From positions 1 through 56,124 of the forward strand of contig CAMBIR010000008.1 in NCBI GenBank assembly GCA_945867665.1: DNA of 56,124 bases, given 5' to 3'. A program made the translations under genes and the position numbers. This DNA comes from an uncultured Bacillota bacterium (GTDB lineage: Bacteria > Bacillota_I > Bacilli_A > RF39 > UBA660). This document shows, in pieces, positions 1,799-56,038 of this stretch. Under the pieces are notes generated by a model. It searched no databases. It was not told the origin of the DNA and was given only the letters and a program-made list of their open reading frames with translations. The first letter of the stretch is position 1; every line of letters begins with the position of its first letter.

Positions 1799-2442
1799 TG
1801 AAAAAAATTACAGAAAATAAAGTATTAAAAGCCATTTATAAAGCAATAAAAAAAAGATTTAAATTTAGCTATTTACTCTTTATGTCTCTTCTTTTTGTTA
1901 GTAATTCCTTTGCTTGGTTTATTTATATGAACAAAATAGATAGTGATATCGATGTCAAAGTCAAAGCTTGGAATGTATCATTTAGATTTGATAATCAAAC
2001 TATGAGTGATTATATTAAATTTGAAATAGATGAAATTTATCCAGGAATGGAAGATAATGAACAAAAAGTTACAGTAACAAATGATGGAGAAGTATCTGCT
2101 AAACTTTATTATGAATTAGTCAGTGTAAGAATATTCGATAAAAATTATGAAGTTAGTGAAGGTGCGATGACCTCATCAGAACTAGAAGATACAATAAACA
2201 AAAATTATCCCTTTAAGATAAAAATATCTTCAGACAAAGATATTATAAGTGCTAAAGGAGGAATAGCTAGCTTTTTAGTAACTGTAACATGGCCTTACGA
2301 AACCTTAGATGATAATGGCAATCTAAAAGATGAAGATGATACTTATTGGGGAAATAAAGCTTATCAATATACCAAAGTGAATTCAGAAACTCCCTGTATC
2401 CAATTAAATGTTAAATTATCAGCAACCCAAATAAATGAATAA
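1798..2442 (+). CDS. TasA/camelysin-like exported protein
   Basis: Secreted 214-residue protein. The N-terminus is basic, followed by a hydrophobic stretch (about residues 24-40) ending in SNSFAWF, the AWF-type junction typical of SipW-processed proteins. The mature part is predicted beta-rich: VKVKAWNVSFRF, then a segment like the PG-rich 'tvtNdGevsakl' region of TasA/CalY proteins, and a C-terminal strand VKLSATQ. It overlaps the signal peptidase gene by one base, which points to a dedicated peptidase-substrate pair. No cysteine pairs or sorting signal are visible apart from a lone Cys near the end. The TasA-family label rests on architecture, not on an alignment. Confidence 0.7.
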   Translation: MKKITENKVLKAIYKAIKKRFKFSYLLFMSLLFVSNSFAWFIYMNKIDSDIDVKVKAWNVSFRFDNQTMSDYIKFEIDEIYPGMEDNEQKVTVTNDGEVSAKLYYELVSVRIFDKNYEVSEGAMTSSELEDTINKNYPFKIKISSDKDIISAKGGIASFLVTVTWPYETLDDNGNLKDEDDTYWGNKAYQYTKVNSETPCIQLNVKLSATQINE

Positions 2443-2452
2443 TAAATATATG

Positions 2453-2499
2453 AAAAAAATACTTTTATAGACCTAAATTCTATAGAAGTATTTTCTTTA
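2453..2499. terminator. Bidirectional intrinsic terminator between convergent genes
   Basis: A 16-bp stem (2456-2471 with 2479-2494, one G-T wobble) has a 7-nt loop and is flanked by A and T runs on both sides. It sits between the stop at 2442 and the convergent gene ending at 2503. Confidence 0.85.
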
Positions 2500-2502
2500 A
2501 AA

Positions 2503-3138
2503 CTAATTACTTGTATTAGGAAGTTGTGTAAATTTCAAATTAACATTAACCTTAGCCAATCCTCCCGTAACTCTAGCAGCATTAGTATCCTCTTTATTAT
2601 CCATTGAAGCTCCATTTCCCTCATCGTCATTCCACTTCAAATGAACCCTTAACTTAATCTTCTTATTGGTACTATTATATAATATCTTGCCTTCTATCTT
2701 AAATTGATTATTTGAATTGCTAATATCTTGTCTATCACCATCATTTAAAGAATAACCAGAAATAACCAAATCACGAACTACACTATCCTTATTATCAGAA
2801 GTAGTAATCTCATATTTTAAGGATACATCTGTATCACTCGCATCAATAATTAAATCAAAATATCCATCCGCAGTAGGAGCAATAACCGAAGGAGCTATAT
2901 CATCATTGCCAGCAAAAATAGGACTAATAACATTAGATATTTCTTTCTCAGAAGTAATATCTTTATTATTAACAAGTATCTTCCATCTAGCAACAGAAAT
3001 ATCAGCATCCCCTGTAGTAGTAGTAATATATTTAGCGTAAGTATCCTTTATACAAAATATAGATAAAAATATCATAATAACAAGACATAATAGTAATATT
3101 AGTTTATTTCTCTTTACTCTCTTTGATATATAAGGCAT
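2503..3138 (-). CDS. TasA/camelysin-like exported protein, reverse strand
   Basis: A 211-residue protein with an N-terminal basic region, a hydrophobic stretch at about residues 12-29 and the junction DTYAKYITTTTGDADISVARWKI. The A/K-Y-x-T-T-T junction followed by 'd...arWki' is the usual start of SipW-exported matrix proteins. The rest is beta-rich and acidic; KWNDDEGNGASMDNKEDT near the C-terminus matches the late 'vtWxd' strand seen in the gene at 15260 (LVWEDNEENNSADYE). The SD is GGAGG, about 8 nt before the ATG on the reverse strand. It is the only surface gene of this cluster transcribed leftward and shares an intergenic region with the gene at 3247. Confidence 0.7.
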   Translation of the reverse strand: MPYISKRVKRNKLILLLCLVIMIFLSIFCIKDTYAKYITTTTGDADISVARWKILVNNKDITSEKEISNVISPIFAGNDDIAPSVIAPTADGYFDLIIDASDTDVSLKYEITTSDNKDSVVRDLVISGYSLNDGDRQDISNSNNQFKIEGKILYNSTNKKIKLRVHLKWNDDEGNGASMDNKEDTNAARVTGGLAKVNVNLKFTQLPNTSN

Positions 3139-42711: not shown

Positions 42712-43338
42712 ATGGGAGCAAGAATGACTTGTCCTTATTGTAATAGTAAGGATACAACAAGTGTTATTTATCTTTATAGATATAATGATAATAATACTTT
42801 TATTAAAAAGAATAATGATGAAGTAAAATATTCAGAAAGAAAAAGAAAACCTAAAAGATTAAACTATGATGGAACTCTTATAACTGATCATAATCATAAT
42901 AAGTATTGTAATAAATGTCATAAATCATTTAATTCAATAGAAAACTTATATGCAGTAGATATTAGTAAAATAACATTAGTATTTATGTTAAGTAAAGCAA
43001 GATATAAATATGAATTTATATTTGATGATAAACCAACATTTATATTTAAAAGGAATTATGAATTAGTTAGTCAAGAAATAATTACTAATAAAGATAAAAT
43101 AAAAATGCTAGATAGTATAACTAATTCTAAAATAAACTTTTGGAATAAAGAATATATCAATAAAGATTATGATAATTATAAATGGATATTAAAGTTAGAA
43201 TATTATAATGGACTTTCAGAATGTTTTAATGGACATGATATGATTCCAAATAATTGGAATATATTTATAAACGGATTTAAAAATTTTATAAATAGATATG
43301 ATGAAGATAATTTATTGAGAAAAATAAAAAATAACTAA
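42712..43338 (+). CDS. Zinc-finger-like protein at the left end of the element
   Basis: 208 residues. An N-terminal zinc ribbon is likely: CPYC at residues 7-10 and CNKCHKSF at about 69-76, with DHNHNKY between them. The rest is Lys/Asn/Tyr-rich without recognisable domains (SKARYKYEFIFDDKPTFIFKRNYE). SD AAAGGTG 9 nt before the ATG. Position beside attL and before the relaxase gene suggests a role in transfer or excision, but that is only context. It ends at a terminator that the group II intron has used as a landing site. Confidence 0.65.
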   Translation: MGARMTCPYCNSKDTTSVIYLYRYNDNNTFIKKNNDEVKYSERKRKPKRLNYDGTLITDHNHNKYCNKCHKSFNSIENLYAVDISKITLVFMLSKARYKYEFIFDDKPTFIFKRNYELVSQEIITNKDKIKMLDSITNSKINFWNKEYINKDYDNYKWILKLEYYNGLSECFNGHDMIPNNWNIFINGFKNFINRYDEDNLLRKIKNN

Positions 43339-43367
43339 AAAGATGTTTAAAAAGCATCTTTTTTTAT
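43339..43367 (+). terminator. Terminator that serves as the intron's insertion site
   Basis: AAAGATG (43339-43345) and CATCTTT (43355-43361) form a 7-bp stem followed by TTTTATTG. The intron begins at 43370, directly downstream. Confidence 0.85.
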
Positions 43368-43369
43368 TG

Positions 43370-44015
43370 GTGCGACACGCATGTGTTAAAACTAGGGCAT
43401 GAAAGTTGCCTGTGGGCTTGGTAGTAGGAACCACTAGCCAATAGCAAGGGTGTCTATCGTGAGGTAGAATCTGAAGGAAGCTGGAGACAAAATCTTGGCT
43501 CGACGAACAGAAACCACATACTAAGGCTGTATAAACTGGATGAGCTTGCCAAACAAAGTAAAGTCCAATACTACACGAGGTTTATATAGTAAATGTGGCG
43601 GGTAGATGAGATGAAAGTGTTAACACTTACCGTGTGAGGTCTTGATGATATGCTATCTAATATGTGATTATAAGATATATTAGAGAAGTAACCTATATAG
43701 AGATGTATAGCTGAACATCAAGAAGTCAGTTCTTGTCGTAGTAGTGATGAAGTATAGGAAACTATATGGAGCAAAGGACAAGACGTTAATGATAATCTGT
43801 CAGTGAAACATGTAAAATATAATTAAAAGCCAGACAAGTCAAAAGAAAGACTCTCACTTACGAGAGTATGTTGGAAACAAAGGGAGTAAGTAGCAGGTGA
43901 TTTATATTTTAACGTAAAGTAAGGGCATAAGATTAGATTTAACGAACCGCTGAGTACGGAACCGTACGCTCGGTGGTGTGAGAGGACGGCAGTTAGTCAC
44001 TGCCTTCTACTCGAT
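43370..44015 (+). mobile_element. ORF-less group IIC intron, about 646 nt
   Basis: Begins GTGCGAC and ends CTACTCGAT. It closely parallels the Oceanobacillus iheyensis IIC intron: GCAAGGGTGTC near 43444, AATCTGAAGGAAGCTGG near 43468, GGATGAGCTTGCC near 43540, GAGGTCT near 43635, and domain V at about 43944-43977 (GAACCGC ... GGTGGTGTGAGAG) with the CGC triad. Domain VI and its branch-site region follow. Domain IV, where an RT/maturase of about 420 residues normally sits, is only about 150-200 nt and opens just five codons (ATG ATA ATC TGT CAG TGA near 43789). It lies immediately after a terminator hairpin, the known IIC target. Splicing and mobility would need a maturase in trans. Confidence 0.88.
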
Positions 44016-44041
44016 TGTAAAAAGAAAGGAGAAACGATATT

Positions 44042-45337
44042 ATGAATTTAAATTATGCAATATTAAGAGTTGAACCTATTATGACTATACCTGATTTAGC
44101 ACAAATAGGATCACATAATAAACGAGAAAAGAAAGCATATCAATCAAACCCTAATATTAAATTAGAATTAACTAAAAACAATATAGAACTTGTTCCTTTA
44201 AATGTTAAATATGTTAAAGGTTTTGATGAATTAACTAAAGAATATAAAAAAGAACATGATGAAAGAATGAAAACTGAACGAGCAGATAGAAAGAAAAGGT
44301 ACCATGAAATGTTAAATAGTTCTAAAAATGTTGTAGCTGATGAATTAGTTATGACTGCTTCACATAATTTCTTTAAAGATATGTCTAGAGAGCAAATAAA
44401 AGATTGGGCTGATACTTGTATGGAATTTGTTTATAATGATTTAGGTTATAAGAAAGAACAAATACTTCATGCAACTGTCCATTTAGATGAAGAAACACCA
44501 CATATTCATTGTGTTGTTGTTCCACTAGTTAAAAAATTAGATAAAAGAACAAATACAGAACGATACACTATTTCTAAAAAACAATATATTAAAGATAAAA
44601 TCCAGTTATCACATTTACAAGACTTATATCATAAAAGACTAACTGAAAAAGGTTACGATCTTGAAAGAGGTATTAAAGGAAGTGATAATAAACACATTAA
44701 AATAAAAGAGTATAAACAACTTACTAAAAAACTAAATCATGAATTAAATGTTAAAAATGATAGATTTGATAAAGCAATGAATGATTTTGAAGAAAAAATG
44801 AAAACAACTAAACAAACACTTATTATTGATAAAGACTTTGTTAAGGTAAAAAAAGATACTTTTGAAAGTATGAATAATGTTATTAATGAATCTAAAAAAG
44901 TAATGGAATTACAACCTAAACTACAAACAATATTTAATGAAGTTGATAGTTATGCTAATAGTTATAAATCATTAGAAAAAGAAAATCAAAAATATAAGAA
45001 AGAAGTTAGTAAACTTGAAACTGAAAATAAAGAATTAAAAGATGAAAATAGAAGTTTAATTTATAGATTAAATGAACTATTTCAATTGTTAAAGAAGTTT
45101 TTAAGGAAACTATTACAACGAGGCAATGATTATACAAAAGATGAAACTGCTTTAATTGTTAAAGATTGTTATGATAATAGTGAATTTGATATGGGAGATG
45201 TTATTAAAATATCTAAAGGAACAACTAAACAAGATGAATTATTTGAATATGTTGAAGCACCAGATTACTACAAAGAACGAGTTAGAAATTATGATGAATA
45301 TGATTACGATAAAGATGATTATGATTTAAGTAGATAA
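44042..45337 (+). CDS. MobV-family relaxase (plasmid mobilization/recombination protein)
   Basis: 431 residues. The N-terminal relaxase domain (1-210) has the MobV catalytic block HLDEETPHIHCVVVPL at about 147-162 (H-x-DE-x-TPH-x-H) and SHNKREKKAYQSNPNI near residue 24, the equivalent of the R-x-N segment of Pre/Mob proteins. The C-terminal half is a long coiled coil (about 215-345) and a charged tail. It nicks oriT and leads the strand into a recipient using a helper's T4SS. SD AAAGGAG is 8 nt upstream, only about 12 nt from the intron's 3' end, so the intron separates this gene from its probable operon partner at 42712. Confidence 0.92.
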   Translation: MNLNYAILRVEPIMTIPDLAQIGSHNKREKKAYQSNPNIKLELTKNNIELVPLNVKYVKGFDELTKEYKKEHDERMKTERADRKKRYHEMLNSSKNVVADELVMTASHNFFKDMSREQIKDWADTCMEFVYNDLGYKKEQILHATVHLDEETPHIHCVVVPLVKKLDKRTNTERYTISKKQYIKDKIQLSHLQDLYHKRLTEKGYDLERGIKGSDNKHIKIKEYKQLTKKLNHELNVKNDRFDKAMNDFEEKMKTTKQTLIIDKDFVKVKKDTFESMNNVINESKKVMELQPKLQTIFNEVDSYANSYKSLEKENQKYKKEVSKLETENKELKDENRSLIYRLNELFQLLKKFLRKLLQRGNDYTKDETALIVKDCYDNSEFDMGDVIKISKGTTKQDELFEYVEAPDYYKERVRNYDEYDYDKDDYDLSR

Positions 45338-54691: not shown

Positions 54692-56038
54692 ATAAAAGCG
54701 GGATTATATGCAAGAGTTTCTACCGACAGCCAACTTGAAGGATATTCAATAGATGCCCAAAAAGAATTTTTGTTAAGTTATGCAAAAAGTAAAGACTATA
54801 CAGAGTTTGAATATTATATTGATGGTGGATATTCTGGTAAAGATTTAAATAGACCAGCGATTCAAAAACTAATTGAAGATTGTAAAAATCATAAAATAGA
54901 TGCTGTATTTGTATTTAAGTTAGATAGAATATCAAGAAGTCAAAGAGATACATTATATTTAATAGAAGAAGTATTTAATAAATATGATGTAAGTTTTATT
55001 TCAATGAGGGAGAACTTTGATACATCAACTCCATTTGGTAAAGCAATGATTGGTGTATTATCAGTATTTGCTCAACTTGAAAGAGAAACAATATTAGAAA
55101 GAACTCGTATAGGACTTAAAAAACGAGCTGAAGCAGGTCTTTGGAGAGGCGGAGGTAAAATACCATTTCCTTATCGTTATGATAGAAATACAGGCACTTT
55201 AATACCAATTCCAGAACAAGTAGAATTACTTCATAAAATGATTTCACTTTATATTAGTGGTAAAAGTTTTAATGCTATTGGAGATATAGTTGGAATGGAT
55301 GAATCATTAGTTGAAACTAGAATATTATCCATAACTAATACTGGTAAAGTTCCATATAAAGATGAAGTCTATGATGGAAAACATGAGGCAGTAGTATCTG
55401 ATGAACTTTATGAAGAAATATTAAGAGTAAATAAAGTAAGAAGTCATGAGAAATATGAAAGACATTATTTACTATCTGGAAAAGTATATTGTGGGCATTG
55501 TGGAGCCAAGTATAGATATCAAAAATGGGGAAAAAGATTAATTATGTATTGTTATTCACAACAAAAAAGTAAACCAAGATATATTAAAGATCCAAATTGT
55601 AATAATAAAAGATGGGACACATTTGAAGTTGAGGATGCAGTATTAGAAGAATTATTTAAAATGAGTCTAGATTTAGATTTATTTAAGAAAACTTTTAATA
55701 TAGCAACTGTCAATGTAAAAAATGAATATAGAGGTAGACTTGAAGAAATAACAAAACAAATAAATAATCTATTAAATAATATAGCAAGTGGTATAGCTGT
55801 GGAAGAAACTAATAAAAGAATAAATGAATTAGAAAAAGAGAAAGAAACTATAGAAGAAAAATTGATTGAATCAGAGCAAAAAGAAAAAGATAACAAAGTA
55901 TCTTTAAATATGATTAAGAACTTAAAAGCAACTTGGTTTGATATGGACTTTGATGAACAAAGAAGAATCATTGAACACTTAATAGACAAAGTTATAGTAA
56001 ATGATAATGAAATCAATATCTACTATAACATTTATTAA
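54692..56038 (+). CDS. Large serine recombinase (integrase of the element), apparent ATA start
   Basis: 448 residues if it starts at ATA 54692. The N-terminal catalytic domain reads KAGLYARVSTDSQLEGYSIDAQ (nucleophile Ser10), GGYSGKDLNRPAIQKL, FVFKLDRISRSQRDT and FGKAMIGVLSVFAQLERE. A Recombinase domain (about 150-250), a zinc ribbon (CGHCG ... CYSQQ ... CNNKRW, about 267-310), a coiled coil (about 345-400) and a C-terminal domain follow. A perfect SD (AAGGAGGAG, 54678-54686) is 5 nt before ATA. No ATG, GTG or TTG lies between the stop at 54677 and the active-site Ser. The first ATG in frame (54770) would delete the catalytic Ser. Confidence 0.92.
   Translation: MKAGLYARVSTDSQLEGYSIDAQKEFLLSYAKSKDYTEFEYYIDGGYSGKDLNRPAIQKLIEDCKNHKIDAVFVFKLDRISRSQRDTLYLIEEVFNKYDVSFISMRENFDTSTPFGKAMIGVLSVFAQLERETILERTRIGLKKRAEAGLWRGGGKIPFPYRYDRNTGTLIPIPEQVELLHKMISLYISGKSFNAIGDIVGMDESLVETRILSITNTGKVPYKDEVYDGKHEAVVSDELYEEILRVNKVRSHEKYERHYLLSGKVYCGHCGAKYRYQKWGKRLIMYCYSQQKSKPRYIKDPNCNNKRWDTFEVEDAVLEELFKMSLDLDLFKKTFNIATVNVKNEYRGRLEEITKQINNLLNNIASGIAVEETNKRINELEKEKETIEEKLIESEQKEKDNKVSLNMIKNLKATWFDMDFDEQRRIIEHLIDKVIVNDNEINIYYNIY

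Follow-up and report, generated by a model that had tools for sequence, protein, structure and literature searches.

A complete group IIC intron without an ORF was identified in the leader of a relaxase gene in the window, the whole 56,124-nucleotide stretch of contig CAMBIR010000008.1 analysed here (Table 1). Together with four further copies from other uncultured Bacilli, it likely represents a non-autonomous ORF-less IIC lineage that is still moving between terminator-like hairpins in gut Bacilli, served in trans by the RT/maturase of another class C intron. In the mechanism that we propose from the sequence comparisons, the intron RNA would be excised with the help of a class C IEP supplied by the current host or by an earlier one. 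The resulting ribonucleoprotein would recognise a DNA hairpin and a 4-nt IBS1 and reverse-splice behind the hairpin, and the lineage would re-target itself through changes in EBS1. In this genome, such an event would have placed the intron recently into the hairpin before the MobV relaxase gene of a mobilizable element.

The assignment relies on covariance models, folding and natural empty sites. The group-II-D1D4-3 model of Rfam (RF02001) matched positions 43453–43625 with 148.5 bits, against a gathering score of 32. In a focused Rfam scan of the stretch, the D5-D6 model (RF00029; 43945–44015, 38.9 bits, E-value 6.5e-06) and the D1D4-1 model (RF01998; 43689–43779, 34.8 bits, E-value 2e-04) fell just under their gathering scores of 40 and 35, respectively, and the 3′ end of the RF00029 match coincided with the intron end given in the original prediction. 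Folding of the entire intron gives z = −3.0, and the D5-D6 region (z = −4.1) forms two canonical hairpins with an A bulged 7 bases before the 3′ end. Compensatory changes accompany the 2-nt bulge of domain V and the bulged A of domain VI, in agreement with the prediction that domain V is intact. Additionally, the features of group IIC were observed: a terminator-like hairpin upstream on the same strand, a short EBS1-IBS1 pairing and a T as putative single-base IBS3. An ORF search inside the intron found none of at least 80 aa, and domain IV holds neither the class C IEP associated with group IIC nor a remnant of one. The IIC assignment is kept nonetheless, because the RNA class can be assigned regardless of the IEP (PMC4424553) and the IIC introns of related hosts encode class C RTs. 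The predicted ORF-less IIC intron of about 646 nt was thus confirmed, as was its position directly behind a terminator-like structure, since the last 45 nt upstream form a hairpin of −10.4 kcal/mol. Among the predicted neighbours, the downstream relaxase was verified, which places the intron in the relaxase leader; the upstream zinc-finger gene shows paired CxxC motifs but has no Pfam or NCBIfam match.

Table 1. Coordinates of the intron, its domains and the neighbouring features in the window.
Feature	Positions	Strand	Evidence or remark
Upstream gene with zinc-ribbon-like cysteine (CxxC) pairs	42712..43338	+	Cargo differing between relatives
Terminator-like hairpin with T-tract; intron target, candidate oriT hairpin	43339..43365	+	Hairpin at the same place in 13 homologous relaxase leaders
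IBS1 (ATTG), 5′ exon end	43366..43369	+	3/4 pairs with EBS1
Group IIC intron without ORF, complete, 646 nt	43370..44015	+	Rfam; exact ends from natural empty sites (L105, L110)
Domains I–III	43370..43782	+	Rfam D1D4-3 (43453–43625) and D1D4-1 (43689–43779); each of the 4 other-species copies about 90–91% identical
EBS1 (CAAA)	43550..43553	+	In the alignment, 23/24 bases of this column pair (Watson-Crick) with the 5′ exons of the respective copies
Domain IV, about 160 nt	43784..43943	+	Without ORF and without detectable IEP remnant
Domain V, short, GAAC loop, 2-nt bulge	43946..43977	+	Folds canonically; compensatory changes among the copies
Domain VI, bulged branch-point A at 44009	43979..44013	+	Fold, compensatory changes
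3′ exon: first base T (putative IBS3), possible nick TG/T, ribosome-binding site AAAGGAG	44016..44041	+	
MobV-family relaxase	44042..45337	+	NCBIfam NF041497, 120.3 bits (cut-off 100); Pfam Mob_Pre
Serine recombinase, perhaps the integrase of the element	54770..56038	+	Pfam Resolvase and Zn_ribbon_recom

Natural empty sites were retrieved with a query in which both flanks were joined and the intron removed. A genome of another genus in the same family (G199, locus L105) carries the uninterrupted site at 96.9% identity over 2,093 nt, reading ...CATCTTTTTTTATTG|TGTAAAAAGAAAGGAG... unbroken, with the junction also given as ...CATCTTTTTTTATTG|TGTAAAAAG.... A second genome (G167, L110) carries it at 98% identity and reads ...TTTAGTG|TGTAAAAAG. 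These sites fix both intron boundaries to the base. The insertion is clean, with no bases lost or duplicated, and the 96.9% identity of the empty site indicates a recent event compared with the age of the host element. No group II intron was found in the homologous relaxase leaders L106, L108, L109 and L113.

Whole-genome and pattern searches yielded five near-full-length ORF-less copies of 645–650 nt, namely the window copy and those of G005, G013, G237 and G427 (L082), the latter four all in MAGs of uncultured Bacilli. At least G013 and G427 derive from rabbit samples. A 24-base pattern common to the copies matched only these four contigs among 84,980 species genomes, and no copy was detected with it in the viral collection. 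Among the five copies, the D1–D3 core is 86–92% identical and domain IV 58–91%, while the closest of the IEP-bearing IIC introns used for comparison reach only 63–69% in the core. The copies cluster on a long stem among the IEP-bearing IIC introns. Although support for this clade is only 64% in a tree of a small data set, identity within it is far above any outside identity and leaves little doubt that the five copies form one lineage. IIC introns with class C IEPs, such as GsI-IIC of Geobacillus and the same-family introns L057 and G427:C16, have the same ribozyme layout, with a short D5, a 4-nt EBS1 and sense-strand insertion behind a terminator-like hairpin; the window intron differs in encoding no IEP. 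The IEPs of the same-family introns belong to class C and have the GsI-IIC RT and 7uim as PDB relatives.

The ORF-less state appears to be older than the dispersal of the five copies. No IEP remnant above shuffles was detected in domain IV of any copy, and a by-eye likeness of TYESMLETEKVSSR to an IEP start was rejected, being no better than shuffles in any copy. As an ORF-less domain IV is common to all five, loss of the ORF most simply predates their spread. The concern that an RT-containing domain IV had been collapsed during assembly is removed by the independent assemblies of G005, G237 and G427, which hold the same ORF-less domain IV on unbroken contigs. A search of the window's own genome found no second copy and no full-length parent. 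Furthermore, an unannotated ORF-less IIC intron was observed behind a terminator on B. smithii plasmid pDSM4216 (NZ_CP012025.1, L033, positions 2434–3076), with an EBS1 pairing to its exon at 4/4 positions. Membership of this intron in the same lineage was rejected, since the tree places it beside an intron that encodes an IEP (97% support) and its domain IV is unrelated (35–39%), which points to a separate origin.

Each of the five copies lies behind a different hairpin with a T-rich tail, the 45-nt upstream stretches folding at −9 to −17 kcal/mol, and the flanking genes differ between copies. With the B. smithii intron included, an upstream hairpin is present in 6/6 introns and the first base of the 3′ exon is T in 6/6. 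For these six introns, we scanned 574 aligned columns against the last four 5′-exon bases of each. Intron positions 181–184 gave 23/24 Watson-Crick pairs and were identified as EBS1, the next column giving 16/24 and the mean being 7 (permutation fraction 0.003). The EBS1/IBS1 pairs are CAAA/ATTG (window, 3/4), TAGA/TCTA, CATA/TATG, AAGA/TCTT, CAAA/TTTG and, in B. smithii, ATAA/TTAT. Such tracking of IBS1 by EBS1 would be expected if each copy came in through reverse splicing, or is kept competent for it and for splicing, at its own site. The D5-D6 alignment is also constrained, with 95% of cells paired and 6 pairs changed on both sides; its covariation score was reached by 0/500 shuffles, and slid structures pair at only 29–50%.

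The insertion point lies in a leader with features of its own. Given the MobV relaxase and the serine recombinase, the host element is probably an integrative mobilizable element. A hairpin immediately in front of the relaxase gene is found in 13 homologous leaders, with stem sequences that vary and still pair, while the gene preceding the hairpin may be zinc-ribbon-like, RhuM-like or of other kinds. Cargo before the relaxase hairpin has been swapped between relatives at a fixed point; in L108 (G229:C4), an extra gene, RhuM-like by eye, stands between the homologue of the upstream gene and the hairpin. The target hairpin may serve as a terminator, as an arm of oriT or in both roles. MOBV1 origins lie a short way in front of the mob gene and carry an IR1 hairpin; 8 nt after it comes a G/T nick, in the sequence GTGTG/TT or GTGCG/TT (PMC5863519, PMC5090054).

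A tentative addition, compatible with mobilisation in trans, is that the hairpin is the MobV transfer origin and that the intron parts it from the nick and damages transfer of this copy; the hairpin, single-stranded during transfer, may have been the target. Retention of the hairpin in the 13 leaders while the gene in front changes favours this reading, as does the MOBV1-like spacing in the empty site, where the hairpin is followed by 8 nt and then TTATTGTG/TAAA (TTAGTGTG/TAAA in L110). In pSA8589, the MOBV1 oriT is likewise close to mobV, 41 nt upstream. Against it, the GTG/T part, present in the empty site and its close relatives, is not kept in the homologues L119, L114 and L106, a hairpin with a T-tract fits a plain terminator too, and the relaxase is distant from plasmid MobV proteins (28–37% identity). 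A more elaborate version is rather unlikely: a cross-species IIC parasite of other introns' RTs, re-targeted through EBS1, would have invaded a MobV oriT at the nick or no more than 2 nt from it, with the relaxase-exposed single-stranded hairpin as a possible target and conjugation as the vehicle.

The original prediction held that splicing or intron structure could influence transfer. If the hairpin is an oriT, the intron would stand between hairpin and nick in the DNA, where RNA splicing cannot repair the damage; any influence on transfer would more probably take this DNA-level route, through a possible splitting of the oriT, than act via splicing. Only 26 nt separate the intron end from the relaxase start, too few to hold a promoter; transcripts of the relaxase must therefore begin inside the intron or reach the gene by reading through the hairpin. 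A consensus scan of both strands found 9 weak promoter-like matches in the intron against 4.4 (sd 2.3) in shuffles; this roughly twofold excess is no evidence of function.

The mobility pattern demands a maturase acting in trans, one of the two options that the original prediction had given for this cell, but no group II IEP was found in the own assembly (1.31 Mb, 28 contigs, 90% complete). Both of its RT genes look DGR-type with an Avd-like neighbour and were rejected as maturases, as a class C IEP query matched neither. At these two loci (L002, G000:C7:4758-8348; L003, G000:C3:30267-33848), the Avd-like ORF lies upstream, and at L003 the C-terminus of a downstream ORF resembles a DGR variable protein. 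Overall, a group II IEP was not found in 4/5 carriers (G000, G005, G013 and G237), all draft MAGs of about 90–96% completeness; an RT in G237 was rejected as a group II IEP, being retron-like. G427, the remaining carrier, encodes an intact class C IEP in an IIC intron of its own (427 bits), with the group II intron RT/maturase 7uim and the GsI-IIC RT 6ar1 as PDB relatives. As only 27/386 genomes of the family pass the IEP cut-off, and MAGs also lose repeats, absence from the carriers is unsurprising by itself.

The scarcity of detected IEPs could also be read as independence from one: the intron would self-splice, as proposed for C.te.I1, an ORF-less intron in a genome without an IEP (PMC4424553), and would have spread through recombination or transfer of flanking DNA rather than by retromobility. 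We consider this improbable, because different hairpins and flanking genes, base-exact insertion and an EBS1 matched to each site are marks of reverse splicing. A recently decayed or dead copy, in which an IEP-bearing IIC intron lost its ORF here and became inert, would suit the genome without a detected IEP, the 3/4 EBS1-IBS1 pairing and the visibly decayed D5-D6 of the sister copy in G005, but this option of the original prediction is very unlikely, as five dispersed copies have a common, homologous ORF-less domain IV without IEP remnant that is older than their spread, the window D5-D6 is intact with compensatory changes, and the insertion itself is recent. The G005 copy, with its D5-D6 collapsed (z = +0.9), is probably dead, judging from the fold. 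Mobilisation in trans is supported by the combination of monophyletic ORF-less copies, different sites and an EBS matched to each; the missing IEP in 4/5 carriers, the 3/4 pairing in the window, the collapsed G005 copy and the 64% clade support count against it.

By analogy, the lineage would behave as the ORF-less introns of Thermosynechococcus do, which are mobilised in trans, but it belongs to another class and extends over several species. The Thermosynechococcus introns, TeI3 among them, belong to class IIB. The TeI3 introns of T. elongatus likewise form one dispersed ORF-less lineage with EBS sequences diverged to fit new sites, and their mobilisation in trans by driver IEPs, which we infer for the window lineage, has been established experimentally (PMC2882425). 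They differ in occurring as many copies in one genome alongside IEPs and in having clear ORF remnants (PMC2882425), whereas the window lineage is IIC, has one copy per species and no ORF remnant, and most of its carrier assemblies yielded no IEP. C.te.I1 of Clostridium tetani was described as a single independent intron that is alternatively spliced (PMC4424553), in contrast to the dispersed, terminator-targeting window lineage. Ll.LtrB of Lactococcus lactis (PMC4256276) is also tied to a relaxase, with cross-talk between splicing, nicking and transfer being possible. Its position is within the relaxase gene, and it codes for a protein of its own, whereas the window intron sits in the leader, where an intact relaxase does not depend on splicing.

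According to a review, bacterial ORF-less group II introns are rare and have lost retromobility, and C.te.I1 is the sole one without a related IEP in its genome (PMC4424553). The element described here is of an ordinary kind and not categorically new; its state is unusual, being a small, dispersed IIC lineage that has no enzyme of its own, is apparently still mobile and lives in hosts of which most show no such enzyme. Should this be confirmed, the lineage would offer a natural test case for the separation of intron and maturase, a step thought to lead towards spliceosomal introns. At 646 nt, the intron is also a compact IIC ribozyme, and its natural empty site is available for assays.

In G013, both contigs concerned end inside the intron (end of G013:C12, L043; start of G013:C29, L044) with an exact 77-base overlap, a sign of a second, similar intron copy in that sample. 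Within domain IV of the window copy, a terminator-like hairpin was observed on the minus strand at 43850–43867 (ACTCTCGTAAGTGAGAGT CTTTCTTTTG).
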